IMG/VR virus record: IMGVR_UViG_3300007735_000595
Location: 1 to 30,722 of that record
DNA from: a virus
DNA: 30,722 nucleotides
Reading direction: 5' to 3' (one strand)
Shown here: piece after piece, positions 101-21,464 of the stretch
How the letters are laid out: each line of letters begins with the position of its first letter
How positions within the stretch are numbered: the first letter of the stretch is position 1
The notes under the pieces: generated by a model
Seen by the model: the letters and a program-made list of their open reading frames with translations, nothing else
What the model was told of the DNA's origin: nothing
Database searches by the model: none
Translations under genes and position numbers: made by a program

Positions 101-331
101 CTATGCCTCCAAGAACGAGTTGATTTCCTTCTGCCGGCGCAGCAGCGCCACCTTGAGCGGTTCCCAGACGTAGTCGGGGACCGGTGTCGTGCCGCTGCGC
201 CAGCGGTAAACCGTCTTGCGGTCGACGTCGAGCAGGCGCGCGACGTGCTCGATATGTTGCGGGCCATACAGGAGGTACGCGGCACGCGCCAGACGGCGCG
301 GTGCTCCCGGCTTAGGAACGCTGATCTGCAT
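101..331 (-). CDS. Small helix-turn-helix DNA-binding protein
   Basis: A 76-residue protein. Residues about 27-55 form a helix-turn-helix: a VARLLDVDRKTVYRW recognition segment followed by RSGTTPVPDYVW. Short phage proteins of this kind bind DNA as repressors or activators of early genes. The start codon lies inside the end of the upstream gene (overlap of 20 bases) and is preceded by GGAGG, so it is probably co-translated. The protein resembles the HTH protein encoded at 3245-3439: both have VYRW-x2-G-x-TP-[VI]-P. This suggests two related regulators, one at the left end of the leftward run and one at the head of the rightward run. The HTH call is fairly secure. Repressor versus activator cannot be told from the sequence. 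Confidence 0.75.
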   Translation of the reverse strand: MQISVPKPGAPRRLARAAYLLYGPQHIEHVARLLDVDRKTVYRWRSGTTPVPDYVWEPLKVALLRRQKEINSFLEA

Positions 332-3219: not shown

Positions 3220-3237
3220 CGTTGCGGACGCGTAATC

Positions 3238-3250
3238 TGACAGGATGTCT
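3238..3250. promoter_or_regulatory. Operator-like TGACA-N3-TGTC motif over a start codon
   Basis: TGACAGGATGTCT matches the TGACA-N3-TGTCA palindrome also found at 1000-1014, 6337-6351 and 17438-17450. Here the ATG of the HTH gene (3245-3247) lies within the motif, so binding of a repressor, possibly that protein itself, could shut off its expression. One arm is a base short of perfect. Confidence 0.4.
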
Positions 3251-3439
3251 ACGGAACTGGCGCTCGACCTGAGCCCCCGGCGCCTTCTGGCATTGGCCGA
3301 GGCGCTCGATATCCCGAACCACGATCTGGCCGTGCTGGCCGGCGTCTCGGTGCGCACGGTGTACCGGTGGCTCGCCGGCGCGACGCCGATCCCGCGGTCG
3401 GTCATCGCCATGCTCGAATTGCTGGAGGCGCGAGCGTGA
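3245..3439 (+). CDS. Small helix-turn-helix regulator, paralogue of the leftward one
   Basis: A 64-residue protein with a clear helix-turn-helix from about residue 20 to 46 (NHDLAVLAGVSVRTVYRW), followed by LAGATPIPRSVIAMLELLEA. The VYRW-x2-G-x-TP-[IV]-P signature is shared with the minus-strand protein at 101-331. Cro-like or transcriptional-switch proteins of this size bind short palindromes as dimers. There is no good Shine-Dalgarno sequence, and the ATG lies inside an operator-like palindrome, which hints at autoregulation. It overlaps the next gene by four bases (GTGA) and stands at the head of the packaging operon. It might control late transcription. Confidence 0.75.
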   Translation: MSTELALDLSPRRLLALAEALDIPNHDLAVLAGVSVRTVYRWLAGATPIPRSVIAMLELLEARA

Positions 3440-4718: not shown

Positions 4719-6340
4719 GACTGCTGAACGTCGGCGGCAAACACATCAATCCGTTCGAGGAGCTGCGCGATATTGAGCGCGTCGAGTGCGAAACGTCGCT
4801 CTATACGTTCGTGCAGCGCGCGTGGCGCTACGTCGATCCGTCGCCGTTCGTGCACGGCTGGCCGCTCGAAGCGATGTGCGAGCACCTCGAAGCGGTCGCC
4901 GACGGCGACATACGCAAGCTGCTGATCAACATCCCGCCGCGTTGCGGCAAATCGAGCATTGTCAGTGTCTGCTTTCCGGCGTGGGTCTGGATACAGCGCG
5001 CGGAAACGGCGACGGCCGGGCCGCAGGTGCCGCTGCTGCATGCGTCGTACGCGATGTCGCTCGCGATGCGCGACAGCGTCAAGACGCGGCGCCTGATCGA
5101 GAGCCCGTGGTATCAGCGACTATGGGGCGAGCGCTTCCATCTCGTGGGCGACCAGAACACGAAGGGCCGCTTTCAGAACGACAAGCGAGGCGAGCGTCTG
5201 ATCACCGCGGTCGACGCGCGTGTCACCGGTGAAGGCGGCAACATCATCGTGGTCGACGATCCGAACGCGGCGAACGAAGCGCTGTCCGAGGCGCTGATCG
5301 AGACCACGAACGAATGGTGGGACGGCACGATGTCGACCCGCCTCAACGACGCGCGCACGGGCGCGTACATCGTGATCCAGCAGCGACTGGGCGAAGAGGA
5401 CTTGACCGGCCACATCCTCGACACCGACGAAGGCTGGACGCATCTCATGCTGCCGATGGAGTTCGAGCCTGAGCGCTCGTTCGTCACCAGCATCGGATGG
5501 GAAGACCCGCGCACCGAGGCAGGCGAGCTGCTGTGGCCTGATCGTTTCGCCGGCGAGCAGGTCGAGGTTCTGAAGAAGCGACTGGGCCCGTGGAAGGCCG
5601 CAGGTCAGTTGCAGCAGCGACCTGAACCGAAGGGCGGCGGCATCATCAAGCGCGACTGGTGGCAGCTGCACGATGCGCCCGCGTTTCCGCCGTTCGACTA
5701 CATCGTCGCCTCGCTCGACACCGCGTACACGACGAAGCAGGAGAACGATTTCAGCGCGCTCACGGTGTGGGGCATCTTTTCGTCCGACACCGTCGCGGTG
5801 CCGTCGAAGCAGGTCATGCGCGGCGAGCGGCTGACGAACGTCGACCCGCGCGACTACGCGCAGCAGTCGCCGAAGGTCATGCTCATGAATGCGTGGCAGG
5901 AGCGGCTCGAACTGCACGATCTCGTGCAACGCGTCGCCAAGACATGCAAGGACATGAAGGTCGACAGGCTGCTGATCGAAGACAAGGCGGCCGGCCACAG
6001 CGTGGCGCAGGAACTGCGACGCCTGTTCGGCTACGAGGACTTCGCCGTCCAGCTCGTCAATCCGGGCGCGCTCGACAAGGTGGCGCGTGTCTACTCGGTG
6101 CAGCACCTGTTCGCCGAGGGCATGATCCATGCGCCCGACCGCCAATGGGCCGAGATGGTGATCGGCCAGTGCTCGACGTTCCCCCGCGGCAAGCACGACG
6201 ACCTCGTCGACACCGTGAGCCAAGCGCTGACGCACCTGCGCCAGCTGCGCATGCTGACACGCAGCAGCGAGCACATTGCCGAAGTGGGCGAGAGCCTGCG
6301 CCACCGCGGCGCGTCGCCGGCGCCGCTCTATGGGATTTGA
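4715..6340 (+). CDS. terL: Terminase large subunit (packaging ATPase and nuclease)
   Basis: A 541-residue motor that cuts concatemeric DNA and drives it through the portal. The N-terminal ATPase carries a Walker A-like loop INIPPRCGKSS (about 71-81, Lys79) and Walker B NIIVVDDPN (about 176-184). The C-terminal RNase H-like nuclease carries SLDTAYTT (Asp335), LLIEDKAAGHS (Glu422) and GKHDDLVDT (Asp495/496/499). These are the expected acidic metal ligands, all intact. The length is normal for the family. The start overlaps the preceding stop (ATGA). After the stop comes the intergenic space with an operator-like palindrome, then the portal gene. The packaging mode (cohesive ends or headful) cannot be read from the sequence. 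Confidence 0.95.
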   Translation: MRLLNVGGKHINPFEELRDIERVECETSLYTFVQRAWRYVDPSPFVHGWPLEAMCEHLEAVADGDIRKLLINIPPRCGKSSIVSVCFPAWVWIQRAETATAGPQVPLLHASYAMSLAMRDSVKTRRLIESPWYQRLWGERFHLVGDQNTKGRFQNDKRGERLITAVDARVTGEGGNIIVVDDPNAANEALSEALIETTNEWWDGTMSTRLNDARTGAYIVIQQRLGEEDLTGHILDTDEGWTHLMLPMEFEPERSFVTSIGWEDPRTEAGELLWPDRFAGEQVEVLKKRLGPWKAAGQLQQRPEPKGGGIIKRDWWQLHDAPAFPPFDYIVASLDTAYTTKQENDFSALTVWGIFSSDTVAVPSKQVMRGERLTNVDPRDYAQQSPKVMLMNAWQERLELHDLVQRVAKTCKDMKVDRLLIEDKAAGHSVAQELRRLFGYEDFAVQLVNPGALDKVARVYSVQHLFAEGMIHAPDRQWAEMVIGQCSTFPRGKHDDLVDTVSQALTHLRQLRMLTRSSEHIAEVGESLRHRGASPAPLYGI

Positions 6341-6381
6341 CATCCTGTCAGTAGTATGGCAGCCGCCGCCTGTGGTATCTT
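6337..6381 (+). promoter_or_regulatory. terL-portal intergenic site: palindrome and possible extended -10
   Basis: TTGACATCCTGTCAG (6337-6351) overlaps the terL stop and matches the TGACA-N3-TGTCA motif. Downstream, TGG-TATCTT (6373-6381) resembles an extended -10 21 bases before the portal ATG, but no -35 lies at 17 bases. It may be a regulated internal promoter for the structural genes. Evidence is moderate for the palindrome and weak for the promoter. Confidence 0.35.
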
Positions 6382-11700: not shown

Positions 11701-12701
11701 CCATCGGCAAGGGCGGCCATGTCTTGAACTTGTCAGGCGACCGCACGCGCTTTGGAACGGTGCACGAGATCAACGGCAAGAAACTTAACTGGCCGGTCAA
11801 GGTCTTTGCAGGCCCCGACTACATTCGCGAGCCCGTCAAAGGGCGTGCATGGGCCAGCGGCAGCGGCGTCGTCAGCGGATTGAATTCGCTTGTACGCGAG
11901 CTGTCGAAAAAAGGCCCTGTGTTCGGCATGTATTCGCCGTATGGCGGTACCGGCGGCGACTTTGCGCATCACATGTTTGACGCCGTGATGGCTCAGGTGA
12001 ATCCTGATGACTTAACCAAGGGCGCCAAGAACAAGTTCGACGTCGCGATGCGCAACGGGCGTTTCATCATGGGCGGCACCGACAAGATCGACAAAATACG
12101 CGACCGCGTTAAGCAAAAGATGGGCGCTTGGCCCGGCATCGACAACCCGAAGAAGGCCAGCGAGTTTGCACGTACCAAGCTGACCGGCGACGAACGCAAG
12201 GCCATCCTTGAATATCTCGACAAAAAAATGTGGACCGACGAGGGTTTCCCGCATGTCGGTATCACGCGTGTTGCCGTCACCGACCCGAAGCTGTTGGGCG
12301 TGCCGCAGAATGTGATCGGCGGCAACGTGGCGCTGCTCAAACCTTCGGAAAAACTTCCCTCGTCGCAACATCCGTCTTTTCCTGCGGGCATGGCCGGCGA
12401 ATATGTCGGCACAGTGCCGTTCTCGCCGCGGCACTACGCTCTGCCGGTGTCGACTGCGCATTTTGCAAAGACGCCGTCTGCAGGCAAAGGCATTCATGTT
12501 GATCCATATTCGCTCGATCCTATGGCGCGGGCAGGGTATCGCACGCTCTTCGAGCGCAATTATGTACTTGAGCCTGTCTCGCAGCAGATGGTTGAAGGAG
12601 CTGAAGAGGGGATCAAAAAGATGCCCCTATACGGTTTGAAAACAGGCGGTAATGTCATCGCCCGCGCCTTGAAGATCGCAAGGAAGACCAATGGCCGATA
12701 A
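8766..12701 (+). CDS. Giant multidomain (polyvalent-type) virion-associated protein, 1311 residues
   Basis: GTG start overlapping the portal stop. Residues 1-65 are basic then Gly-rich (YPGPGGGLDPSPGGGGYAG), ending ADGGNV. About 90-570 is a domain found in many large phage polyvalent proteins: PGIKPDEIKHSGF, LPGGQNYREVLLHTP, FRSGHWDDVPNVLAHIRMSD, VEEVQSDWGQKGREEGF, WTDLALKRVLHEAAHGGYDKV, GMRGYYDNILPKRL and VTPQMRDSI, closing with FKRGGEV. A charged coiled-coil insert sits at about 176-240. The rest (580-1290) holds further unassigned domains, including LDPSAYYNVAQPVAARDV and VFGMYSPYGGTGGDFAHHMFDAVM. The C terminus is TGGNVIARALKIARK. No catalytic site is certain. It is probably an internal protein injected with DNA, since such proteins are often near portals. 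It overlaps the next gene by 11 bases. Confidence 0.7.
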   Translation: MTKKVARRALMVARDQRALLRRVANIYPGPGGGLDPSPGGGGYAGPGGGKYIGPSHYADGGNVPPFKLKSGAADLIEQKGQKKALPAQFAAMPGIKPDEIKHSGFADLPAKAIPREEAARHLREHAVPIEEMTYEGDNPQSAKARYGRDGSLELPGGQNYREVLLHTPSEPHVPSPELNEAHKRMEAASQAYDEALLDQLSKNPRLSDDDYRRASNEVDAARIAFNRLEEADQRKKETAGFRSGHWDDVPNVLAHIRMSDRKGPNGEKVLHVEEVQSDWGQKGREEGFAKSPAKIYEVYNTRSGNKSQPFETLDEARKYHASLPETVRGMTEVRDRDLPGEPGIPHGPYVDNTQKWTDLALKRVLHEAAHGGYDKVVVTPGNEQNKRYSLAKHATALEHSKNPNGTYRVDAHLPDGDNHLLGDELSEQKLSAQVGKEIAQKIVRGEGETHPSLNGKVLRGLDLEVGGSGMRGYYDNILPKRLQALAQQHDPKAKVHLNGDALAPAEFKPDYDAASDYAADYGRDERDREQLVEQHVNDQFRDYQKTAKDTPLHSLDVTPQMRDSIKANGFNQFKRGGEVDDPIANWHWRPLEDVRNELQLDEIPSHVHKFGEFMDETARRATTHGLTPRDLIKAYAITRASIGRRALPAETLRKAFTELPPDVTGRVRPEGAMGHWLHTKMGQRYLDEAEAGRVDEEAIEHARNTMRRFGKDQTEPMALRWAALNLPGKEGRVSELIARAHRGQSAPEEWRGEMRMPGIAESKAGFLASMLGRGDQPTLDARQLILHTGQPTKDAAPILSRKGASEAAVNRLAGRQSELKLKHDPEMSPFYQHLAHHTIWDKAAGEETTHEDLMRALRGAKRGGRQTEKPLSLIASHPVVQGMAAALPAEAELKALLRKAGIVRPYEQPNKENIEKALKIARTYAMPLGAGASTSELDPSAYYNVAQPVAARDVMTKTLATKGYSLKPENPMSWSDFASIGKGGHVLNLSGDRTRFGTVHEINGKKLNWPVKVFAGPDYIREPVKGRAWASGSGVVSGLNSLVRELSKKGPVFGMYSPYGGTGGDFAHHMFDAVMAQVNPDDLTKGAKNKFDVAMRNGRFIMGGTDKIDKIRDRVKQKMGAWPGIDNPKKASEFARTKLTGDERKAILEYLDKKMWTDEGFPHVGITRVAVTDPKLLGVPQNVIGGNVALLKPSEKLPSSQHPSFPAGMAGEYVGTVPFSPRHYALPVSTAHFAKTPSAGKGIHVDPYSLDPMARAGYRTLFERNYVLEPVSQQMVEGAEEGIKKMPLYGLKTGGNVIARALKIARKTNGR

Positions 12702-13635
12702 CATCAATCAATACGGGCAGAGCCTGCGTGGCGCTTTTGCGCAGCTTCTTGGCCAGTCGCCCCAGACTACTGCACCGGCGGCGCCGTCGACCGCGCCGCA
12801 AGTCGCCGCGCCCGCCGCGCAGAACTGGTCCGGGTTACTCAACGCCGGCGGCAATGACGCCTACAAAAAGATGCTGGCACAAGTCGGCGATATAGATAAA
12901 ATTTTTGCGCCGCAAAAACCTTACACGCCACCTGCGCCCCCCGTACCTATATCGTCGCCGCCACCGTCTTCGGCACCTGTTGTAACAGCAGATTACGGAG
13001 GAACGGGATCATGGGGTGATAGCGCTGGAGGCGGGAACGCTGGCGTTGGCGGGCCGGGTGCTGCTGGTGCTGCTGGCGACGCGGCGGCTGCCGCGGCGGC
13101 TGGTACGGGAGACGGCTTTAAGCGCGGCGGGCTCGTTTTGCCCACGGAAGCGCAGAAGCACGCCGGCAATTACAAGAAGCATCACATCAGCTTCCACGGC
13201 CTGCCGGTCTCCATTGAGACGCCGAAAGGCGCGACACGGGAAGGCAAGGACCCGAACGGCAAAGCGTGGCGCTGCACGATGCCGGCCGACTACGGCTACA
13301 TCAAGCGCACGGAAGGTGCCGACGGCGACCACGTTGACGTGTTCGTCGGGCCCGACCGCGACAGCCGTATGGTGTTCATAATCAACCAGAATGATCATCG
13401 AACTGGACACTTCGATGAGCACAAGGCAATGCTTGCGTACTCTTCGGAGCGCGCGGCGGTTGCCGATTACGTGAAGGCCTTCAGTGACGGCAAGGGCCAC
13501 GACCGCATCCGTTCGGTCGAGCCGATGTCGTTGGAGGCATTCAAGCACTGGCTGAAGCGGGGCAAGACCAAGTCGCCCGCCAAGTCGAAGTCCATCATCG
13601 AGCACGCGCTCGCGGTCATAAGGAGCAAGAAATGA
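12691..13635 (+). CDS. Inorganic-pyrophosphatase-like domain protein (virion module)
   Basis: A 314-residue protein. Residues 1-140 are a low-complexity Ala/Pro/Gly linker (PAAPSTAPQVAAPAAQ; PPAPPVPISSPPP; poly-Ala) ending FKRGGLV (143-149). Residues about 157-290 resemble the pyrophosphatase-like domain of phage polyvalent proteins: KHHISFHGLPVSIETPKG, then MPADYGYIKRTEGADGDHVDVFVG. The latter carries the Asp-x-Asp-x-x-Asp-Val metal cluster (Asp211, Asp213, Asp216) of soluble pyrophosphatases, with His in place of the usual Pro. The C-terminal IIEHALAVIRSKK echoes the ALKIARK end of the preceding giant protein. Hydrolysis of pyrophosphate or a related phosphoester is inferred. It overlaps its neighbours on both sides, and a structural use of the fold is also possible. 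Confidence 0.75.
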   Translation: MADNINQYGQSLRGAFAQLLGQSPQTTAPAAPSTAPQVAAPAAQNWSGLLNAGGNDAYKKMLAQVGDIDKIFAPQKPYTPPAPPVPISSPPPSSAPVVTADYGGTGSWGDSAGGGNAGVGGPGAAGAAGDAAAAAAAGTGDGFKRGGLVLPTEAQKHAGNYKKHHISFHGLPVSIETPKGATREGKDPNGKAWRCTMPADYGYIKRTEGADGDHVDVFVGPDRDSRMVFIINQNDHRTGHFDEHKAMLAYSSERAAVADYVKAFSDGKGHDRIRSVEPMSLEAFKHWLKRGKTKSPAKSKSIIEHALAVIRSKK

Positions 13636-15071
13636 GTGAAATGGCGAGGGCCGCTCGCGCGGCCATGAAGAACAAGATTCAGCGGCTAACTGCCGGCGAA
13701 CCGAAGGCCAAGGTCGACGCGTCGACGTGGTCGCCGCCCGAGATGATGAACACGGGCGCCAAGACTGGCATGCGCCCGATCTCGCGCCGTGCCTTCCGCA
13801 AGGGCGGCAAGGTCATCGAGAAGTGCGAAGGTGTCGAGGCGATGAAACGCGCCGACCGCAAGCAGCGGAAGACCGGTGGCCGCTCTCTCGTCACCGACCT
13901 GATCAACCGCAACGACAAGAAGGCCAACCTCGCACGCGACGGCGGCGGCGCCCACGTCGGCGGCTACAAGCGCGGCGGCGACGTCGAGCAGGACAAGAAG
14001 CTGATCAAGAAGGCGATCAGCCAGCATGACAAGCACATGCACGGCGGCAAGCACGAGGAGATCAAGCTCAAGAAAGGCGGTCGCACGCGCAAGCAGGCTG
14101 GCGGCTCCATGACGGAGCGAGAAAAGAACGCGTATAACCGGCGTATTAACGATATGCTGGAAGATAGCCGAGACGTCAGGACGGAACGGCTTCTCATGCC
14201 GCCGTCCGCGCAGGAGTCCGACTTCGATAAGCGGACGCGCGAACTGATGCCGGAGCCGAAGCGGGGCTCGATGCCGCCGGATGCCGACATGAAGAACCCG
14301 GTGACGGGCGCGCCGCGCACCGGCCGCAAGAAGGGCGGCGGTACGTACTTCGGCGGCACCCGCCCGACCGGCGGCCGCATGCCGCATGCCCGCGGTGGCA
14401 GCACGTACGCGTCGATGGACGACAAGCCGCGCCTGCGGCTGGTCAAGACGCACACGGGCCCCGAAGGGCGCACCGCCAAGGTCTACAAGGACGCCGACTG
14501 GGGCGAATACCGTGTCAAGCACTACGTGAACGGGCAGCATCAGGCTAACGCTGACTACCACACCGACGATCTTGAAGACGCGCATGGCACGGCGCAGGCC
14601 ATGATGCGCGATAAGCGCGCTCGCGGCGGCCGCACCAAGGGCAAAACCAACATCGTCATCTTGGTCAACGCCGGCAAACCCGACCAGCAGCAGGCGATGA
14701 TGCCGAAGGTGCCGACGCCTTCGCCGCTTCCCGTCCCGCCCATCGCTCCCCTGCCAATGCCGATGGGCGCGGGCGCGCCGCCGATGCCGTTGCCGCCGGG
14801 TCCTCCCCCTGCAGGCCTCGCCGGCGGCGCGCCCGGAGCCATGCCGCCGCTGCCCCGCAAGGCCGGCGGCCGTGCCTACCGGTCGTACAAAGACATGGAC
14901 GCCGGTGCCCTGAGCGGCATGGGCCGTCTGGAGAAGACTGAGATCGAGCACGGCAAGCGCATCGGGCGCCTGTCGGGCGGCCGCGCCCGTTCCTACAAGG
15001 ACATGGACGCTGGTGCCCTGAGCGGCATGGGTCGCATCGAGAAGACCGCGATCCAGAAGCACAAACGGTAA
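13632..15071 (+). CDS. Basic Gly-Gly-motif-rich virion-associated protein, 479 residues
   Basis: Start overlaps the preceding stop (ATGA). The protein is strongly basic, with many short motifs of the form [KR]-x-GG-[KRDGS]: FRKGGKVIEKCEG, QRKTGGRS, YKRGGDV, LKKGGRTRK, GRKKGGGTYFGG, HARGGS, ARGGRTKGK and PRKAGGRA. A small beta unit (PRLRLVKTHTGPEGRTAKVYKDADWGEY) lies near residues 260-290. About 340-400 is Pro/Met-rich (PLPVPPIAPLPMPMG). The C terminus holds two copies of a 20-residue repeat, RSYKDMDAGALSGMGR-x-EKT-x-I. No enzyme motif is seen. Strong charge and spacing suit binding to packaged DNA or multivalent tethering. It belongs to the portal-scaffold operon and shares GG motifs with the two preceding proteins and one near the capsid. 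Confidence 0.65.
   Translation: MSEMARAARAAMKNKIQRLTAGEPKAKVDASTWSPPEMMNTGAKTGMRPISRRAFRKGGKVIEKCEGVEAMKRADRKQRKTGGRSLVTDLINRNDKKANLARDGGGAHVGGYKRGGDVEQDKKLIKKAISQHDKHMHGGKHEEIKLKKGGRTRKQAGGSMTEREKNAYNRRINDMLEDSRDVRTERLLMPPSAQESDFDKRTRELMPEPKRGSMPPDADMKNPVTGAPRTGRKKGGGTYFGGTRPTGGRMPHARGGSTYASMDDKPRLRLVKTHTGPEGRTAKVYKDADWGEYRVKHYVNGQHQANADYHTDDLEDAHGTAQAMMRDKRARGGRTKGKTNIVILVNAGKPDQQQAMMPKVPTPSPLPVPPIAPLPMPMGAGAPPMPLPPGPPPAGLAGGAPGAMPPLPRKAGGRAYRSYKDMDAGALSGMGRLEKTEIEHGKRIGRLSGGRARSYKDMDAGALSGMGRIEKTAIQKHKR
14879..15051 (+). repeat. Two-copy direct repeat encoding RSYKDMDAGALSGMGR
   Basis: Copies at about 14879-14938 and 14992-15051 encode RSYKDMDAGALSGMGR-[LI]-EKT-[EA]-I. They differ mostly at third codon positions (GCCGGT versus GCTGGT; CGTCTG versus CGCATC), so the peptide is conserved. 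They are separated by a 53-base spacer coding for EHGKRIGRLSGGRA. Confidence 0.85.
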
Positions 15072-15072
15072 T

Positions 15073-15123
15073 CGCCGGCCGGCGACCGGGGCGCTGCGCT
15101 GTCTCCTCACGGTGCGGCGCCCC
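15073..15123. other. Structured 75-base gap: palindrome and hairpin
   Basis: The gap between the GG-rich gene and the next contains a perfect 12-bp palindrome CGCCGGCCGGCG (15073-15084) and a hairpin with stem GGGGCGC (15088-15094) and GCGCCCC (15117-15123) with a 22-base loop. No T tract follows, so it is not a classical terminator. It could act as an mRNA stability or attenuation element before a strong GGGAGGAG ribosome-binding site. Confidence 0.4.
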
Positions 15124-15146
15124 ACCCCGGCTACTGGGAGGAGCCA

Positions 15147-15356
15147 GTGAGCGCACAGACTTACGATACGAGGCTTGGCACGAAGTTCGCCGAGTTGGTC
15201 AATGAACGGCTGACGACTGTCACGCACGCCGTCATGAACGGAACCATGAAGAAACAGGACTACAAGAAGGAAACCGGGCGTTTCAACGGCCTCCGCGAGG
15301 CGCTCGAACTCTATGAGGAAGCGGAGGCCATCGTGAAAGGCGCAGAGAGGAGCTGA
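15147..15356 (+). CDS. Small helical protein, 69 residues
   Basis: GTG start with a strong GGGAGGAG ribosome-binding site at 15136-15143. Begins MSAQTYDTRLGTKFAELVN and continues with helices (LTTVTHAVMNGTMKKQDYKKET and GRFNGLREALELYEEAEAIVKG). It is the right size and shape for a small chaperone or head-completion cofactor between scaffold and portal genes, as in many podophages, but no family motif is certain. It ends one base before the next ATG (TGAGATG), so it is in the same operon. Confidence is high that it is a gene and low on function. Confidence 0.7.
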   Translation: MSAQTYDTRLGTKFAELVNERLTTVTHAVMNGTMKKQDYKKETGRFNGLREALELYEEAEAIVKGAERS

Positions 15357-15357
15357 G

Positions 15358-15750
15358 ATGCCGCAAATGGCTATGGCACATGAGGTCGATCCCAAGACGG
15401 AGTTGCTCGACAAAGTCGGCAACGTCAACGGGATCGACGTCTTCAACAACGCGGTCTTGGTGGCGATCTATGTTCGTCCGACCAAGACGAAGTCGGGGAT
15501 CATCCTGACGCAGCAGTACACCGACGAGGACCGCATTCAGGGCAAGGCGGGCCTCGTCATCAAGAAAGGCCCCCGTGCCTTCGTTGACGAAAGCGGACAG
15601 TGGTTCGCCAACGTCAACATCGAGGAAAGAGACTGGGTGATCTTCCGGCCAAGTGACGGCTGGCCGATCAATGTCAACGGAGTGGCTTGTCGCCTGATCG
15701 ACGACGTCGCGATCCGGGGCAAGGTCGATCAACCTGATCGTGTGTGGTGA
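15358..15750 (+). CDS. GroES-like (cpn10-fold) phage protein
   Basis: A 130-residue protein with the co-chaperonin fold pattern: NNAVLVAIYVRPTKTKSGIILTQQ matches the GroES N-terminal strand and mobile-loop context, followed by QGKAGLVIKKG, and later RDWVIFRPSDGWPINVNGVACRLIDDVAIRGKV, the equivalent of the GroES barrel strands. It is longer than bacterial GroES because of the insert KGPRAFVDESGQWFANVNI. It may cap a host or modified GroEL ring to fold capsid proteins, as T4 Gp31 does, or be a structural domain that reuses the fold. It lies between the small helical protein and the scaffold. The gene is certain; the functional call is by pattern. Confidence 0.75.
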   Translation: MPQMAMAHEVDPKTELLDKVGNVNGIDVFNNAVLVAIYVRPTKTKSGIILTQQYTDEDRIQGKAGLVIKKGPRAFVDESGQWFANVNIEERDWVIFRPSDGWPINVNGVACRLIDDVAIRGKVDQPDRVW

Positions 15751-15757
15751 GGGAACC

Positions 15758-16585
15758 ATGGCTGAAGAAGAGAAGATTGTCGTCGAAGAACAGCCCGAAG
15801 TCGTCGAACAGCCGAAGGAAGTCACGCTCGAAGAGGGCGTCGATGACCTGAAGCAGCGGCTGGCGGCGGCCGAGTCGCGCGCCAAGGCGGCCGAAGAGGC
15901 CAAGCACAAGGCCGAACTTGAAGCGTACGCGGCGCGCGGCACCGTGCAGGAGACGAACCTGCATCTGGTGACCAACGCCATCGATACGCTGCGCCAGAGC
16001 AACGAGATCGCCAAGGCCAACTACAAGGCCGCGATGTCGGCGGGCGACTACGATGCCGCCGCCGGCTATCAGGAAGAAATGTCGAGTCATGCAGCCAAGT
16101 TGCTGCAGCTCGAACAGGGCAAGCAGGCGCTCGAAAGCGCGCCCGCGCCCGTGGCGCCCGTGCAGCGGCCGTCCGATCCGGTCGAGGCCTTCGCGACGCA
16201 GCTCTCGCCACGATCTGCCGACTGGGTGCGCAAGCACCCGCAGTTTGTGACCGACCCGCGCCTCAATCAGAAGATGATCGCGGCGCACAACATGGCGATG
16301 GCCGACGGCCACGTCGCCGACAGTGACGAGTACTTCGCCACGGTCGAGAGCCTGCTGCAGGTCAAGAAGGCGCCGCCGGCCGAAGCGTTGTCGGAAGCGT
16401 CGCAGCCGACGGCGCGCCGCACGACCACGCCGCCGCCCGCGGCGCCCGTGAGCCGCGACACACGCGGCGGAAACGTGGTTCGTCTCACCGCCGAAGAGCG
16501 CGAGATGGCCGAGATGATGAAGATGACCCCCGAGGAATACGCGAAGAACAAGGTCGCGCTCAAGAAAGAAGGAAGGCTGCACTAA
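15758..16585 (+). CDS. Capsid scaffolding protein
   Basis: I start at the ATG at 15758 (MAEEEKIVVEEQPEVVEQ), preceded by GAGGGAA. The upstream in-frame start is a shadow in the previous gene. The 275-residue sequence is acidic at the N terminus, has long Glu/Ala/Lys coiled coils (about 27-95: LKQRLAAAESRAKAAEEAKHKA), then a Pro/Ala hinge (APAPVAPVQRPSDP), and ends in the helix-turn-helix MKMTPEEYAKNKVALKKEG. That last segment is the typical scaffold tail that binds the coat subunit. Scaffold guides procapsid assembly and is then lost. Position before the capsid genes supports this. It overlaps the next gene at TAATG. Confidence 0.85.
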   Translation: MAEEEKIVVEEQPEVVEQPKEVTLEEGVDDLKQRLAAAESRAKAAEEAKHKAELEAYAARGTVQETNLHLVTNAIDTLRQSNEIAKANYKAAMSAGDYDAAAGYQEEMSSHAAKLLQLEQGKQALESAPAPVAPVQRPSDPVEAFATQLSPRSADWVRKHPQFVTDPRLNQKMIAAHNMAMADGHVADSDEYFATVESLLQVKKAPPAEALSEASQPTARRTTTPPPAAPVSRDTRGGNVVRLTAEEREMAEMMKMTPEEYAKNKVALKKEGRLH

Positions 16586-17163
16586 TGGACCCGATGCCAC
16601 AGACCGCCGGCCGTCGCCGCCGCGCGCGGCGCCCCGAAGCCGAGGAACTGGACGATACGCGTCCCGCGATGCGTCCCGAATTGCGCGAAGACGATCCTCG
16701 CGCGGCCGCGAAGAAGCGCGCGGCCGAAATTCTTGGCCACCTTGGCGACATGGACGAGGGTGTCGACGAGTTCTACATCTCGGCCGACATGGTGCCGGAT
16801 GGCTGGACCTACGAGTGGAAGCGTCGCACGGTCTACGGTCAGGAAGACCCGGCCTATCAGGTGGCGTTGGCCCGTACCGGGTGGGAACCGGTGCCGGCGC
16901 GTCGGCATCCCGAGATGATGCCGGTCAATTGGAAGGGCGAGACCATCGAGCGCAAGGGCATGGTGTTGATGCAGCGGCCGCGCGAGATCACCGAACGCGT
17001 CGAGCAGCTCGACCTGCGCAAGGCGCGCAATCAGGTCAGGGCCAAGGAACAGCAGCTCGCCGCGGCGCCGCCGGGCACGATGGAGAAGGAATTCTCCGAT
17101 CCGCGTACGCGGCCGCAGATCAAGAAAAGTTACGAAGCCATGCCGGTTCCCGACGACAAGTAG
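16585..17163 (+). CDS. Conserved virion-associated protein near capsid, 192 residues
   Basis: Start overlaps the scaffold stop (TAATG). The N terminus is an Arg-rich tail (AGRRRRARRPEAEELDD). The core carries ADMVPDGWTYEWKRRTVYGQEDPAYQVALARTGWEPVP and RHPEMMPVNWKGETIERKGMVLMQRP. The C-terminal half is a long helix (RVEQLDLRKARNQVRAKEQQLA). The core pattern is familiar from unnamed podophage head-module proteins. The basic tail suggests DNA or RNA contact. A terminator follows 18 bases after the stop, so this is the last gene of the portal-scaffold operon. I give no function beyond head-associated. Confidence 0.7.
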   Translation: MDPMPQTAGRRRRARRPEAEELDDTRPAMRPELREDDPRAAAKKRAAEILGHLGDMDEGVDEFYISADMVPDGWTYEWKRRTVYGQEDPAYQVALARTGWEPVPARRHPEMMPVNWKGETIERKGMVLMQRPREITERVEQLDLRKARNQVRAKEQQLAAAPPGTMEKEFSDPRTRPQIKKSYEAMPVPDDK

Positions 17164-17181
17164 GGACGCAGGGACAGAGGG

Positions 17182-17211
17182 AAGGGGGCCAGTTGGCCCC
17201 CTTCGTTTTTT
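17182..17211 (+). terminator. Rho-independent terminator after scaffold operon
   Basis: Stem AAGGGGGCCA (17182-17191) and TGGCCCCCTT (17194-17203), then TTCGTTTTTT to 17211. It ends rightward transcription before the reversed gene and the capsid gene group. The T tract is on the plus strand. On the minus strand it is weaker but may also stop the reversed gene, whose stop codon abuts it. Confidence 0.9.
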
Positions 17212-17386
17212 ATGCCTTGACCAGAAGCGAAGTGTCGAACCGTTGCGGCGCGTAATCCACCGCGTCCGACACTTCCTTGATCATGCAGCCACACGCGGGC
17301 AATAGTTCTGTGATCACCCACAACGTGGGCCCGACGTTTTTCTTGCCCTGCTTTATGCGAACCTTGTCCCCGACCTTCAATGCCAT
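17210..17386 (-). CDS. Reversed moron-type small protein, 58 residues
   Basis: The only minus-strand gene among the virion genes. An earlier in-frame GTG adds eight residues, but GGAG six bases before the ATG at 17384-17386 fixes the start: MALKVGDKVRIKQGKKN. That N terminus resembles a small SH3/KOW-type barrel, which often binds RNA or protein. Further on are LWVITELLPACGCMIKE and DAVDYAPQRFD. It has its own sigma70 promoter (17423-17451) with an operator-like palindrome and is flanked by a terminator, which is the classic layout of a moron expressed independently of late genes, possibly from a prophage. The function is unknown. A regulatory, anti-host or exclusion role is an inference. Confidence 0.7.
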   Translation of the reverse strand: MALKVGDKVRIKQGKKNVGPTLWVITELLPACGCMIKEVSDAVDYAPQRFDTSLLVKA

Positions 17387-17422
17387 TTGTATCTCCGTAA
17401 CGATCACCATGATCGTGAGAAC

Positions 17423-17451
17423 ATACTACCACGTTACTGACATAATGTCAA
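17423..17451 (-). promoter_or_regulatory. Promoter and TGACA-N3-TGTCA operator of the reversed gene
   Basis: Minus-strand -35 TTGACA (17446-17451), a 17-base spacer and -10 TAGTAT (17423-17428). The palindrome TGACATAATGTCA (17438-17450) overlaps the -35 box, as at 1000-1014. This is strong evidence for an independent, repressible promoter. Confidence 0.7.
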
Positions 17452-17584
17452 GTAGACGCGGAAGACGTCTTTACGCATCATAGGCTCGTCGCGTCCCCCG
17501 GTGTGGGCGCTTAGAGACTGTCCCTGCGACCCTAGCGCCTCGGTGCGCTGCTATGGCCGCTTCCTGTAACAAGGAGGTATGGCT

Positions 17585-18214
17585 GTGGCCAACACGAACA
17601 GCCCCTTCGGTTTTCGTCAGTACTACGGCGGCTCGGGTGGCGCTCCCACCTTCGCTCAGTCGACCCGCCTGATCGCCTCGACCGATTCGACGGCGGTCTT
17701 CTTCGGCGATCCGGTCATGCCGGTCGTCTCCACCGCCAACGGCTACATCACGCAGGCGGCGGCCGGCACCACCACGCTGGCCGGCATCTTCGTCGGTTGC
17801 AAGTATCTCTCCACCTCGCAGAAGCGCACGGTGTGGAGCAACTACTGGCCCGGCAGCGATGCTACCGGCGACGTTGAAGCCTACGTCATCGACGACCCGA
17901 ACGCCCAGTTCGTCGTCATGGGCAACAGCACCACGTTCGACATCACGGGCTCGCTGACCACGGTCACCAGCTCGAAGGTCGGGCAGTACGCCCAGTTCGC
18001 CATCGGCACCGGCACCACCGCCAACGGTCAGTCGGGCGCCTATCTCGATTCGGCAGGCACCACGGTGACCTACCCGTTCATCGTGCGCGGCCTGATCGTC
18101 GCGCCTCCCGGTGCCAACGGTGCCGATCCGACCACGGCCTACAATCAGGTCATCGTCGGGTTCAACAACGAGTGGCTGCGCTCGAACGGCGCCGGCCCCA
18201 CTGGTATCAGCTAA
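17585..18214 (+). CDS. Capsid decoration or head-stabilising protein
   Basis: About 209 residues, starting MANTNSPFGFRQY. Start choice: the ATG at 17579 is only one base from AAGGAGG (17571-17577), whereas the GTG at 17585 has a normal seven-base gap and gives the typical MANTN start of this protein group, so I choose GTG. The protein is beta-rich, with Gly/Thr/Ala-rich stretches (TTTLAGIFVGCKYLSTSQKRTVWSNYWPG and GSLTTVTSSKVGQYAQFAIGTGT). It directly precedes the major capsid protein, a position usual for decoration proteins that clamp the shell. No enzymatic motif is seen. The 5' leader (17452-17570) is GC-rich and structured, and no clear promoter is seen in it. Confidence 0.75.
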   Translation: MANTNSPFGFRQYYGGSGGAPTFAQSTRLIASTDSTAVFFGDPVMPVVSTANGYITQAAAGTTTLAGIFVGCKYLSTSQKRTVWSNYWPGSDATGDVEAYVIDDPNAQFVVMGNSTTFDITGSLTTVTSSKVGQYAQFAIGTGTTANGQSGAYLDSAGTTVTYPFIVRGLIVAPPGANGADPTTAYNQVIVGFNNEWLRSNGAGPTGIS

Positions 18215-18227
18215 GGAGTAACGACCA

Positions 18228-19142
18228 ATGGCTGTTAATCTTTCTGCCATCAAGGATTTGCTCCTTCCGGGCCTGCGCGGTGTCGAAGGCAAGTACGAGA
18301 TGATCCCGTCTCAGTACGACAAAATCTTCACCAAGCACGACTCGAAGATGGCTCTGGAGCGTACCGCTGAAATGCGTTACCTCGGCCTCGCCCAGCTGAA
18401 GACCGAAGGCGGCCAGACCGCGTTCGACAACAGCGCCGGCGAACGCTACGTCTACAATCAGGAGCACACCGAAATCGCCCTTGGCTACGCGATCACCCGC
18501 AAGGCCATCGACGACAACCTGTACAAGACGCAGTTCCATCCGTCGAACCTCGGTCTGATCGAGTCCTTCCAGCAGACCAAGGAAATCTACGGCGCCAACA
18601 TCCTGAACACGGCGACCACCTACAACGCTTCCATCGGCGGTGACGGCAAGGCGCTCTGCGCGACCGACCATCCCATCGACGGCGGCACGGTGGCCAACAA
18701 GCCGTCGGTGCAGGTCGATCTTAACGAAGGCTCGCTGCTGAACGGCATGATCGCCGTCCGTACGAACTTCAAGGATCAGGCAGGCCTGAAGGTCTTCGCC
18801 CGTGCGCGCAAGCTCATCGTGGCGCCGCAGAACGAGCCGGTCGCGATCCGCCTGACCAAGACGGAACTGCGCCCCGGCACCGCGGACAACGACGTGAACG
18901 CGATCCTTTCGACGGCCGGTGGCCTGCCGGAAGGGTACATGGTCAACGACTTCTTGACCTCGGCGTATCCGTGGTTCCTGCTCACGAACATCGATGGGCT
19001 TTCCTACATGGAGCGCATCAAGTTCGAGACCGACATGCAGGTGGACTTCGTCACCGACAACCTGCTGGTCAAGGGCTACGAGCGCTACTCGTTCGGCTAC
19101 TACAACTTCCGTGCGATCTACGGATCGTTCCCGACCACCTAA
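18228..19142 (+). CDS. Major capsid protein
   Basis: A 304-residue protein with a good ribosome-binding site (AAGGAG) before the ATG. HK97-fold expectations are met: an N-terminal helix-rich arm (LSAIKDLLLPGLRGVEGKYE), a central segment with QEHTEIALGYAITRKAIDDNLY and ILNTATTYNASIGGDGKALCATDHP, a peripheral domain with LKVFARARKLIVAPQNEPVA, and a C-terminal strand near FLLTNIDGLSYMERIKFETDMQVDFVTDNLLVKGYERYSFGYYN. The TDHP and MERIKF segments are typical of phage coat proteins of this group. It builds the icosahedral shell. The length and position between the scaffold group and the connector genes are as expected. Confidence 0.9.
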   Translation: MAVNLSAIKDLLLPGLRGVEGKYEMIPSQYDKIFTKHDSKMALERTAEMRYLGLAQLKTEGGQTAFDNSAGERYVYNQEHTEIALGYAITRKAIDDNLYKTQFHPSNLGLIESFQQTKEIYGANILNTATTYNASIGGDGKALCATDHPIDGGTVANKPSVQVDLNEGSLLNGMIAVRTNFKDQAGLKVFARARKLIVAPQNEPVAIRLTKTELRPGTADNDVNAILSTAGGLPEGYMVNDFLTSAYPWFLLTNIDGLSYMERIKFETDMQVDFVTDNLLVKGYERYSFGYYNFRAIYGSFPTT

Positions 19143-19157
19143 CAAGGAGCCGCTCTC

Positions 19158-20189
19158 ATGGGCATTACTCACCTGAGCGGTCTGGAAGTTGCCGGTGTTC
19201 CCACCATGGGAATGTCCGGTCTTCCGCTGACCTCGGGAAGCGTCTACTTCGTTGACTACGTCAACGGAAGCGACGGCAACTCGGGGGCTGCGGACCAGCC
19301 GCTCCAGACGCTCTACGGCGCACACGACAAGATGGTGGCCGGTCAGAACGATGTGGCCGTAGTCGTCGGCAACGGTGCTGCTTCGGGCAGCCAGCGGCTT
19401 TCGCTGGCGAACGCGCAGACCATCACGCCGTCGGCGACCGCCGGCACGCTGAACTGGACGAAGAACGCCTGCCACATCGTGGGCATGGCGGCTCCGACCA
19501 AGGTCTCGCAGCGTGCTCGCATCGCGCCGCCGACCGGCACCTACACGCAGGCGACCTTCGGGTCGGGCAACTTCATCGTTGTCTCAGCCACTGGCTGTAT
19601 CTTCTCGAACCTTGAGGTCTTCAACGGCTTCTCGACGGGCGGCAACAACCAGATCGCGTGGACCGACAGCGGTGGCCGCAACTACTATTCGAACGTGATG
19701 TTCGGTGGTGCGGGCGACGCGGCTTCGGCCCAGTCGACGTCGAGCCTGTCGCTGCTGATCACCGGCAGCACGGGCGAGAACACCTTCGTCGGATGCGAGT
19801 TTGGCCTCGATACCGTCACCCGTACGGTTGCAAACGCCACGCTCAAGTTCGCCGGCGGTACGCCGCGCAACACGTTCATCGACTGCAACTTCGTCTTCCA
19901 GACGAGTTCGGCCAATACCATCGGCATCTCTGTTGCTTCGGCGGCGGATATCGACCGGTGGCAGAAGTTCGACCGTTGCACGTTCATCAACAACGTGCAG
20001 TCGACTTCGACGACCATGACCGGTCTTTCGACCCTCGCGGCGTCGGCCGGCGGCCTGCTGCTGATGAAGGACGTCACTCTCGTCGGTATCAGCGAGTTCG
20101 GCACCGACGCGACCTCCCGCGGCCAGATTTACGTCGATGGTGGCACTGTCACCGCGGCGACTTCCGGCATCGCCGTCAACCCGACCTAA
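19158..20189 (+). CDS. Beta-helix capsid-associated protein
   Basis: A 343-residue protein, start preceded by AAGGAG. The N-terminal VYFVDYVNGSDGNSGAADQPLQTLYGAHDKM resembles the opening of right-handed parallel beta-helix (pectate-lyase-fold) proteins. It is followed by repeating short strands with turns: ATGCIFSNLEVFNG, GGRNYYSNVMFGG, GENTFVGCEFGLDT, PRNTFIDCNFVFQ and FDRCTFINNV. No catalytic residues of a lyase are evident. Its place immediately after the major capsid protein argues for a head decoration, head fibre or glue protein. A spike subunit is less likely since the fibre genes lie 4 kb away. Confidence 0.75.
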   Translation: MGITHLSGLEVAGVPTMGMSGLPLTSGSVYFVDYVNGSDGNSGAADQPLQTLYGAHDKMVAGQNDVAVVVGNGAASGSQRLSLANAQTITPSATAGTLNWTKNACHIVGMAAPTKVSQRARIAPPTGTYTQATFGSGNFIVVSATGCIFSNLEVFNGFSTGGNNQIAWTDSGGRNYYSNVMFGGAGDAASAQSTSSLSLLITGSTGENTFVGCEFGLDTVTRTVANATLKFAGGTPRNTFIDCNFVFQTSSANTIGISVASAADIDRWQKFDRCTFINNVQSTSTTMTGLSTLAASAGGLLLMKDVTLVGISEFGTDATSRGQIYVDGGTVTAATSGIAVNPT

Positions 20190-20200
20190 CGGAGTAAGCC

Positions 20201-20485
20201 ATGAAGGCTCGTCATCGCAAGCACCGCGAACAAGGCGGTGTCGCCGAGTACAAGGAAAACAAGAACCCGCCGTCGCGCACCGCCGACGCGGAGCCGATCA
20301 TCAGCGAAGCCAACAAGCGCAAGCATGGTGGCAAGGCCGTCAAGATGCACGGCAAGCATGCCAAGCATCACGCCGGCCGCATGCCGCGCAAGAGCGGCGG
20401 CCGCACGGGTTCGAACATGAACCCGCTGTCGTCGGCTCACGCAGGCACGCCCGCCAAGGGCCGCCACGTCAAGCAGATCGACTAG
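20201..20485 (+). CDS. Small basic His/Lys/Gly-rich protein
   Basis: A 94-residue, highly basic protein (MKARHRKHREQGGVAEY). The second half is a His/Lys track: KRKHGGKAVKMHGKHAKHHAGRMPRKSGGRTG. The KHGGK and RKSGGRTG motifs are the same [KR]-x-GG type as in the proteins at 8766-15071. It has no predicted globular core. A DNA-condensing, virion-packaged peptide or a metal-binding tail are possibilities. It follows the beta-helix gene with its own GGAG ribosome-binding site and is followed by a hairpin. It is certainly translated in this operon by spacing, but the function is unknown. Confidence 0.7.
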   Translation: MKARHRKHREQGGVAEYKENKNPPSRTADAEPIISEANKRKHGGKAVKMHGKHAKHHAGRMPRKSGGRTGSNMNPLSSAHAGTPAKGRHVKQID

Positions 20486-20490
20486 GTAGG

Positions 20491-20527
20491 TCGAAGACGG
20501 GGGCTTCGGCCCCCGTCACTTCTTCGA
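20491..20527 (+). other. Strong hairpin overlapping next gene's ribosome-binding site
   Basis: Stem GACGGGGGC (20496-20504), loop TTCG, then GCCCCCGTC (20509-20517), extended by outer arms TCGAAG / CTTCGA (20491-20496, 20522-20527). GAGGA, the ribosome-binding site for the gene at 20535, begins inside the outer arm. There is no T tract, so it is not a standard terminator. It may tune translation or transcript stability between capsid and connector genes. Confidence 0.5.
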
Positions 20528-20534
20528 GGAACGC

Positions 20535-20810
20535 ATGGCCCGCACACCGGCATGGCAACGTCGCGAGGGTAAGGACCCGTCTGGCGGCCTCAACGCCACC
20601 GGGCGCGCTTCCCTTCGTGCTATCGGACACAACATCAAGCCGCCGGTCACCGCCGAGCAGGCAAAGGGCAGCCCGGCCAGCGCCGCGCGCCGCGACAATT
20701 TCCGTGCCCGCATGTGCGGGATGAAGGAAAAGCTGACGTCATCCAAAACCGCCCACGATCCGAACAGCCGCATCAACCTTGCGCTGAAGAAGTGGGATGT
20801 GAAGTGTTAG
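20535..20810 (+). CDS. Small basic phage protein (DUF6321-like)
   Basis: A 91-residue protein reading PAWQRREGKDPSGGLNATGRASLRAIGHNIKPPVT, then SAARRDNFRARMCGMKEKL, and ending NLALKKWDVKC. The order PAWQRxEGKxPxGGLN-x-GRAS ... ARRxxFxARMxGM ... ALxKWxxxC is that of a small phage family recalled as DUF6321, whose function is unknown. The two C-terminal landmarks (Met-Cys-Gly-Met and the final Cys) are present. It is basic and presumably virion-associated or packaging-associated. The start lies just after the hairpin at 20491-20527. The family name is from memory of the motif, not from a search. Confidence 0.75.
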   Translation: MARTPAWQRREGKDPSGGLNATGRASLRAIGHNIKPPVTAEQAKGSPASAARRDNFRARMCGMKEKLTSSKTAHDPNSRINLALKKWDVKC

Positions 20811-20819
20811 GAGCCTGAG

Positions 20820-21464
20820 ATGCGCCCAATCGTCGTCACCTGCGGCCCTTACACCGCGGCGGCCACCAACAATATTCGCACGGCAGGCGCCATTGCGGGC
20901 GCCGGCGCAGTCACGCTGAATGGCACGCTGGTTGCCAGCGGCGTTGCCACGCTCGATCAGCAGCGCCGCGTGCTGTTTACCAGCAGCGGCAACGACACCG
21001 GCATCACGTTCACTATTACCGGAACCAACGCAGCGGGCGATGTAATCAGCGAAACGCTCAACGGGGGCAACCCGACCGCCTATACCGTGCTTGACTACAA
21101 GACGATCACGTCGATTACGTCGAGCGGCTCCTCGGCCGGCACGGTTGCCATCGGCACCAACGGCATCGCGGGCAGCCCGTGGGTTCGCCTCGATGAATAC
21201 GCGCTGCCCAATCTCAGCATTCAGGCTGTCGTCTCCGGTACGATCAACTACACGATCCAGCAAAGCTACGACGACCCCAATTCGCCGACCAATGTCGTGT
21301 TGCCTGCGGCGATGACGTGGTCGCAGCTTGTCGCCGCAACTGCAAGTTCTGCCGTGACCAACGTAGCCTATCAGCCGCTCTTCGTTCGTGTTCTGGTAAA
21401 CAGCAACACGAACCCGGCCACCGTCACGGCGACGTTCCTCCAGACTGGCATCGTGCCTCAGTAA
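20820..21464 (+). CDS. Beta-rich structural protein near connector, 214 residues
   Basis: The start is preceded by TAGGAG straddling the previous stop. The protein is beta-sandwich-like: alternating Val/Thr/Ile strands with small turns (VTLNGTLVASGVATLDQQRRVLF, ITFTITGTNAAGDVISETLNGG, VVSGTINYTIQQSYDDPN, LFVRVLVNSNTNPATVTATFLQTG). No transmembrane segment is seen. It sits between the small DUF6321-like gene and the gp4-like connector, so a head completion, decoration or tail-adaptor function is likely. It ends flush with the start of the next gene (TAAATG). No specific family name is given. Confidence 0.7.
   Translation: MRPIVVTCGPYTAAATNNIRTAGAIAGAGAVTLNGTLVASGVATLDQQRRVLFTSSGNDTGITFTITGTNAAGDVISETLNGGNPTAYTVLDYKTITSITSSGSSAGTVAIGTNGIAGSPWVRLDEYALPNLSIQAVVSGTINYTIQQSYDDPNSPTNVVLPAAMTWSQLVAATASSAVTNVAYQPLFVRVLVNSNTNPATVTATFLQTGIVPQ

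Follow-up and report, generated by a model that had tools for sequence, protein, structure and literature searches.

A probable moron-like cassette at an insertion hotspot beside a covarying capsid-operon leader RNA in an SU10-type phage

Here we describe a 58-codon leftward gene inserted between an upstream terminator and the capsid control region of a tailed phage, and a leader RNA of the capsid operon that lies beside it. We consider it rather probable that an SU10-type phage, itself probably lytic, carries the gene as a moron-like accessory cassette, which would be transcribed apart from the late genes and whose protein would act by binding. The neighbouring element appears, from the sequences compared, to be a conserved leader RNA of tandem hairpins that covary strongly and match nothing in Rfam; of the two results it is the more novel.

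The DNA analysed here in full, referred to as the window, is a 30.7-kb viral record (IMGVR_UViG_3300007735_000595, 30,722 nt). We take it to be a fragment of an SU10-type tailed phage because its portal and adaptor match SU10 models, its capsid protein matches phrog_371 (3.5e-11) and there is a GroES-like gene upstream. Judging from the open reading frame (ORF) list and family matches, all other plausible genes from about 3.2 kb to the end of the window point rightward, further leftward genes being found at 101-2176, and the original prediction of a single leftward gene in the virion part is borne out. Among the genes of the structural region, one at 12691-13635 (plus strand) carries an inorganic pyrophosphatase domain (PF18823, 1.4e-50).

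An inserted gene between two rightward operons

The insert and the genes around it are as follows.

16585-17163, plus strand: p192 gene (192 codons), the last gene of the upstream rightward operon
17205-17436, no strand: inserted cassette, ends approximate; missing in 10/10 aligned relatives; GC 51.7%
17210-17386, minus strand: 58-aa accessory gene, predicted SH3/KOW-like barrel (ORF, relatives, dN/dS, model)
17392-17396, minus strand: Shine-Dalgarno-like GGAGA just before the start codon (sequence)
17579-18214, plus strand: gene for 211 aa preceding the capsid gene; tentatively labelled a possible decoration protein
18228-19142, plus strand: major capsid protein (phrog_371)

The reversed 58-residue gene had been predicted, and its ORF comes with a ribosome site, GGAG lying six bases 5' of the ATG. 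A homologue search at the same site in relatives found three, L005 (95%), L006 (64%) and L291 (64%), all leftward; the last was recovered using the neighbouring 192-aa gene as bait and then again by profile. Gaps in the ORF alignment among carriers are whole codons only. The ratio dN/dS (NG86) is 0.23 for window-L006, 0.21 for window-L291, 0.23 for L005-L006 and 0.17 for L005-L291, these four being rough since dS exceeds 1 in each pair, and 0.59 for window-L005 (five changed codons) and 0.55 for L006-L291. Values of about 0.2 between diverged copies suggest selection; judged by its sequence, the gene is real and mostly under purifying selection.

No tblastn match to the 58-aa protein was found in annotated phage records, nor any relative on contigs of the genome collection, nor anything significant in Pfam, PHROGs, NCBIfam, PADLOC or PDB sequences. 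Nuclease families gave no match, and none of the KOW/NusG sequence models matched, with two Spt5 chains only appearing at E 3.8 and 8.8. An AlphaFold model built from three sequences (mean pLDDT 84.8, pTM 0.67) has five strands, forming the five-strand barrel by which the KOW/SH3 fold is recognised. In VIA-align 2 the top matches were Spt5 KOW domains (Z 8.5 and 8.4, rmsd 2.5, 56 aligned), followed by NusG (7.4), on a background in which Z 7-8 is common and within which most KOW matches fall. The earlier description of the protein as SH3/KOW-like is fair for a predicted fold, but not as membership of a sequence family, for which there was no significant match, and the fold tells no function. 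Like the KOW/SH3 barrels of Spt5 and NusG, the predicted fold spans all 58 residues (Z 8.5 to about 7); unlike them, the present protein is stand-alone, with no other domain and no significant sequence match.

About 230 bp between the terminator and a palindrome at the right-hand edge are missing, with clean edges, from all ten aligned relatives closest by capsid protein (L007-L014, L016 and L017), and the gene is present in 4 of 152 distinct gap sequences, those of the window, L005, L006 and L291. Its GC content of 51.7%, against 61.8% for the window, lies within the lowest 2.3% of equal windows. As in morons, the insert is thus absent at the same place in close relatives and differs in composition from its surroundings. 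Between the window and L005, the gene (96.6% identical), the stretch from terminator to gene leader (96.0%) and the capsid leader (97.9%) are far more alike than the genes on either side (only 75.6% and 73.4%), on which account gene and capsid leader would have moved as a block by recombination, most likely the way in which the cassette travels. In a capsid-protein tree, from which L005 and L291 are absent and whose bootstrap had not settled, the carriers window and L006 belong to separate supported sets, both of which also contain non-carriers; two origins of the gene are not forced by the tree tool's own count, which considers other labelled groups only and ignores unlabelled rows.

Transcription signals at the edges of the insert

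The sites that bear on transcription of the gene are listed below.

17181-17210, plus strand: intrinsic terminator closing the upstream rightward operon; stem of 10 bp, plus-strand U-tract; outside the insert
17400-17416, no strand: second inverted repeat, ACGATCA-CCA-TGATCGT, close to where leftward transcription would be expected to start; kept in L005
17423-17428, minus strand: -10 element TAGTAT, insert side (promoter scan, alignment)
17437-17451, no strand: palindrome CTGACATAATGTCAA (CTGACA-TAA-TGTCAA), candidate operator; also at empty sites, with copies at 1000-1014 and 6337-6351
17446-17451, minus strand: -35 element TTGACA, resident side, within the palindrome (promoter scan, alignment)

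The hairpin at 17181-17204 is followed by GTTTTTT on the plus strand and by CCCTCTGTCC on the minus strand. A leftward U-tract after it is absent in the window and in L005, L006 and L291, and the hairpin is kept in all ten aligned relatives that lack the gene. Since the U-tract is on the plus strand only and the hairpin persists without the gene, the terminator is not the gene's own, as had been supposed; by its sequence it serves the rightward upstream operon. Of the moron arrangement originally proposed, there remain an acquired accessory gene of low GC that is missing in close relatives and a likely promoter, but not a terminator of its own.

A sigma70-like promoter reads leftward into the gene, with TTGACA (17451-17446), a 17-nt spacer and TAGTAT (17428-17423; 10/12, TG before the -10). 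It is the sole one found in 14000-21000, where shuffles of the same stretch also average 1.0, so that its support comes from position and partial conservation, not from the scan; in L291 the -10 box is weak (TAGGGT, by our own reading). The complete promoter of the original prediction is therefore a good consensus match that the scan alone does not raise above chance. No firm candidate for the rightward capsid promoter emerged in the window.

The palindrome CTGACATAATGTCAA overlaps this -35, and to that extent agrees with the predicted operator, but it is not specific to the gene. In the window, the 13-bp pattern TGACANNNTGTCA occurs five times with at most one mismatch (0.50 expected; 0/100 shuffles reach five) and three times exactly (0.019 expected). 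Of the 21 nearest distinct loci, 10 have the exact 15-bp palindrome at the site (4/4 carriers and six empty ones), 18 have the looser form YTG[AT]CANNNTG[AT]CA there, and none of the other 131 has the exact form. Eight of 26 whole records contain the exact form, against none for a backward control, its positions including 1000, 6337 and 17437 in the window and the capsid site in six other records. Self-regulation of the gene is not supported, because the palindrome occurs without it and recurs at 1000 and 6337; its product is, moreover, predicted to be an SH3-type barrel. For the same reason we regard the palindrome as the candidate operator of a phage or host regulator and not as private to the gene. 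As a guess, its readers may be two paralogous small helix-turn-helix (HTH) proteins, encoded at 101-331 (minus strand) and 3245-3439 (plus strand) and 42% identical over 52 residues, of which the latter alone passes the Pfam cut-off.

Several further occurrences were noted. Each of the copies of YTGACANNNTGTCAR at 1000-1014, 6337-6351 and 17437-17451 lies between genes or at the edge of one, a possible phage regulon, and a degenerate copy at 3237-3251 overlaps the start of the HTH gene at 3245-3439. In the record G007, the palindrome at 935 overlaps the -35 of TTGACA-N17-TATAAG before a small ORF. A match at G001:10335 lies within an ORF and is probably due to chance, and the second inverted repeat at 17400-17416, not seen in L006 and L291, is probably incidental.

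A leader RNA of the capsid operon

Directly to the right of 17182-17451, and upstream of the 211-aa and capsid genes, lies an RNA element with the following parts.

17485-17576, plus strand: leader RNA of the capsid operon, model R1, 64.8 bits (covariance model)
17491-17510, plus strand: leader hairpin 1, loop CCCGGTGT (alignment)
17534-17549, plus strand: leader hairpin 2, loop with CTCGGT; register shifted by one in the window's subclade
17559-17578, plus strand: leader hairpin 3, pairing the Shine-Dalgarno of the next gene (local fold)

Across 48 sequences, pairing in the two main hairpins reaches 94.9%; both sides are changed in 110 cells, where shuffles give 30, and the covariation score is 0.632 against 0.267 in shuffles (0/500) and at most 0.177 when the partner is slid. 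These 48 were chosen by hand from 66 (alignment A2), near-copies, L095 and irregular ones being omitted, from a candidate list that did not include L018, L078, L080 and L091 (no recognised loop). In 99 aligned leaders, which are matches fitted to the covariance model, double changes occur in all 15 pairs and the score is 0.716 against 0.269. The underlying alignment (A4) took in 100 of 119 loci and left out the weak or absent matches L080, L232, L234, L239 and L257, the cut contigs L037, L044 and L063 and eleven near-copies; its 99/100 matches are not a prevalence.

At E up to 0.01 the covariance model found the leader in 61 of 73 sources, 22 of the 73 being training sequences or a contig of one. 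Several of the 12 non-matching sources are cut contigs or stretches off the site, or the distant L004; L080 and L090 are true misses. In a set of 64 it was present in 48, the misses comprising 15 of one diverged group (L232-L247) and L257, and in another set in 52/56. Of 21 whole records, 20 contained a single match at E up to 0.0014, and the Pag-Yong1-like clade gave none (0/81 loci). The locus L230 holds two matches (1143-1227 and 2402-2491), perhaps a duplication. Rfam yielded no leader match at gathering score in the window and only a tRNA in nine loci, and a permissive Rfam search of 17160-17640 returned only matches far below gathering scores.

The two hairpins tend to share a loop. In a simple search with 8-nt loops, 66 of the 99 leaders have the form C[CT]CG-N-[CT]-G in both hairpins; five more, including the window, have the same core with hairpin 2 shifted by one base; and the other 28 depart from it in one or both loops, as with the different hairpin 2 loop of the L011 group. 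The same loop in both hairpins is thus true of most leaders, not all. Among the 66, any departure from G at the base after CCCG is seen in both hairpins at once: GTT is found in hairpin 2 of 7/7 loci with GTT in hairpin 1, and GCT likewise in 1/1. In the capsid tree the GTT loci stand in two places, with unlabelled rows (GG-type, by our own reading) between them; the tree tool's count, which ignores unlabelled rows, finds one GTT change enough. The joint change may have happened more than once, or else have been exchanged between lineages. The Shine-Dalgarno is paired in the local fold of 82 of the 95 leaders with a recognisable one. Two features of the window's own leader count against this picture: folded alone, it prefers a different pairing for hairpins 1 and 2 and does no better than shuffles (z -1.0), and its hairpin 2 is shifted by one base. 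Kissing of two leader loops via CCGG was considered and is disfavoured, as the GTT and GCT variants would not fully self-pair.

Because the loops change together, both are probably held by one and the same protein, which might serve in capsid assembly or be a regulator of phage or host origin. Evidence and doubt are, in our estimation, evenly balanced for the fuller proposal: that this is an undescribed cis-regulatory leader with two like-looped hairpins (CCCG-N-YG-Y) and a ribosome-site hairpin, through which one such protein sets the amount of shell protein, and beside which inserts land. No capsid leader of such a kind appeared among the open-licence literature matches listed, by their titles and the starts of their abstracts; phage-linked RNA motifs are treated in PMC2864571, the main text of which does not contain the word 'capsid'. 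Compared by description, not sequence, the leader resembles HK022 putRNA, an antiterminator that suppresses termination by acting on RNA polymerase, with about 70-90 nt and two stem-loops (putL just after its promoter; PMC9378689), in size and in its two stem-loops. Unlike putRNA, it has loops that are mostly alike and a third hairpin over the ribosome site, and it lies upstream of capsid rather than early genes.

Another possibility is that the gene regulates its neighbour, the capsid operon: its KOW-like protein, or the act of leftward transcription, would tune the capsid promoter or bind the leader RNA. Placement of the leftward -35 in a palindrome bordering the capsid control region, and the joint movement of gene and leader between the window and L005, would fit such a role, and some KOW domains are known to contact RNA polymerase or RNA. 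With the leader in 99 loci of alignment A4 and the gene in 4 of 152 gaps, however, the protein cannot be a general ligand, and in L006 the gene has diverged (63.3%) while the stretch from hairpin 1 to the start codon is 95.5% identical. We judge this explanation unlikely, if the strongest of the alternatives to an accessory cassette.

Insertion hotspot, lifestyle and proposed role

The space occupied by the cassette was compared in those loci of the window's clade that have both neighbours, giving 152 distinct gap sequences (232 loci including copies), the Pag-Yong1-like clade being excluded (45/197 distinct sequences). The gap is short in 123 and enlarged in 29. Four of the enlarged gaps hold the 58-codon gene and 11 a leftward HNH-type ORF (HNH_3 by Pfam in the three scanned, the others assigned by reading alike); the rest have tRNA-Thr in 3 and tRNA-Thr with a rightward ORF bearing a sub-threshold HNH_3 match in 1; tRNA-Met in 2; tRNA-Gly in 1; an MT-A70 methyltransferase in 1; a pair of rightward ORFs in 3 loci that are almost identical; and, in L092, L223 and L225, no assigned gene. 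Several of these are near-copies, and independent events are accordingly fewer. Three loci (L317, L323 and L324) were counted as empty, the gap being 83 nt once the start of the 211-aa gene was corrected; L092 and L095, where that start is misplaced, were kept as enlarged by their distance to the leader. The site between the upstream terminator and the capsid control region is an insertion hotspot. In L003 (MW202675.1), the tRNA-Met at 17524-17600, in the same hotspot, is absent from the record's feature table, and a small annotated CDS around it may be spurious.

Such traffic suggests that the gene could be neutral cargo of homing endonucleases, with no benefit to the phage: eleven leftward ORFs that read as HNH-type (HNH_3 confirmed in the three scanned) share its site, and nucleases have been described at the boundaries of phage exchange (PMC10448857). 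The insert is like free-standing HNH homing endonucleases at phage structural genes in that these occupy the same intergenic site in the same orientation in relatives, and unlike them in having no nuclease domain that we could find. The lack of a nuclease family match and a dN/dS of about 0.2 between diverged copies speak against neutral cargo, which we think improbable.

The original prediction was that the gene might give a trait expressed in lysogens, such as immunity or exclusion. Prophage accessory loci have been described as antisense in orientation, with their own promoter and independent transcription (PMC7067206), and the present gene is likewise antisense, with a candidate promoter, and has a low GC content. 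Models for integrase (PF00589) and resolvase (PF00239) were searched in 20 records, 16 viral and four metagenome-assembled genome (MAG) bins; nothing was found in the viral ones (the window and 15 of 39-62 kb), and the matches in the four bins sit on contigs other than the leader-carrying ones. Close relatives of the capsid protein were found, by a pattern-based scan, on only 11 contigs of the genome collection (3.5-61 kb), from very different bacteria; ten are titled MAG, and L099 is 'Nitrospiraceae bacterium isolate AM_1104', without that word. These contigs (L089-L099) belong to the window's phage clade and were binned into bacterial MAGs of unrelated phyla, the pattern that free phage contigs caught up in bacterial bins would give. 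Taken together, the lack of integrase and resolvase matches and the pattern of MAG contigs argue against lysogeny, and the phage is probably lytic, a temperate or plasmid-like cycle with no recognisable integrase being the less likely course; SU10-type structural relatives are virulent phages. A lysogen-expressed moron giving the host immunity, exclusion or another trait is thus highly improbable. Equally so is a leftward transcript that, for want of its own terminator (no minus-strand U-tract follows the hairpin in any of the four carriers), enters the upstream operon as antisense with the ORF secondary, against which it counts that dN/dS is low for four of the six pairs and that alignment gaps never break a codon.

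The reading that we prefer, an accessory cassette of a probably lytic phage, would run as follows. By comparison with relatives, in most of which the site is empty and in some of which it holds other inserts, about 230 bp with one leftward gene lie inserted exactly between the upstream terminator and the capsid control region. The insert would have brought a -10 box and a ribosome site, to which the resident palindrome would lend TTGACA as the -35; from this combination of a resident -35 and the insert's own -10 we infer that the gene is transcribed apart from the late genes, under the control of whatever protein reads the palindrome elsewhere in the phage. The 58-residue SH3/KOW-type product may act early, as one similar promoter-like sequence (in G007) and the palindrome hint, through binding to nucleic acid, to the machinery of transcription or to a protein of the host.

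Morons are described as accessory genes often, not always, equipped with their own promoter and terminator (PMC7067206, PMC2147016). The cassette is like them as a single acquired gene between structural operons, reversed, of lower GC and probably with its own promoter; it differs in having no terminator of its own, in taking its -35 from resident DNA and in that prophage expression is unsupported.

The gene itself adds one small accessory protein to those at phage exchange points, and with four versions and many empty sites to compare, its history of insertion can be read unusually clearly. The hotspot offers a testable case of why some phage intergenic sites gather endonucleases, tRNAs and morons, and the conserved leader, found in a large clade of environmental phages, offers one of RNA-level control over capsid synthesis.
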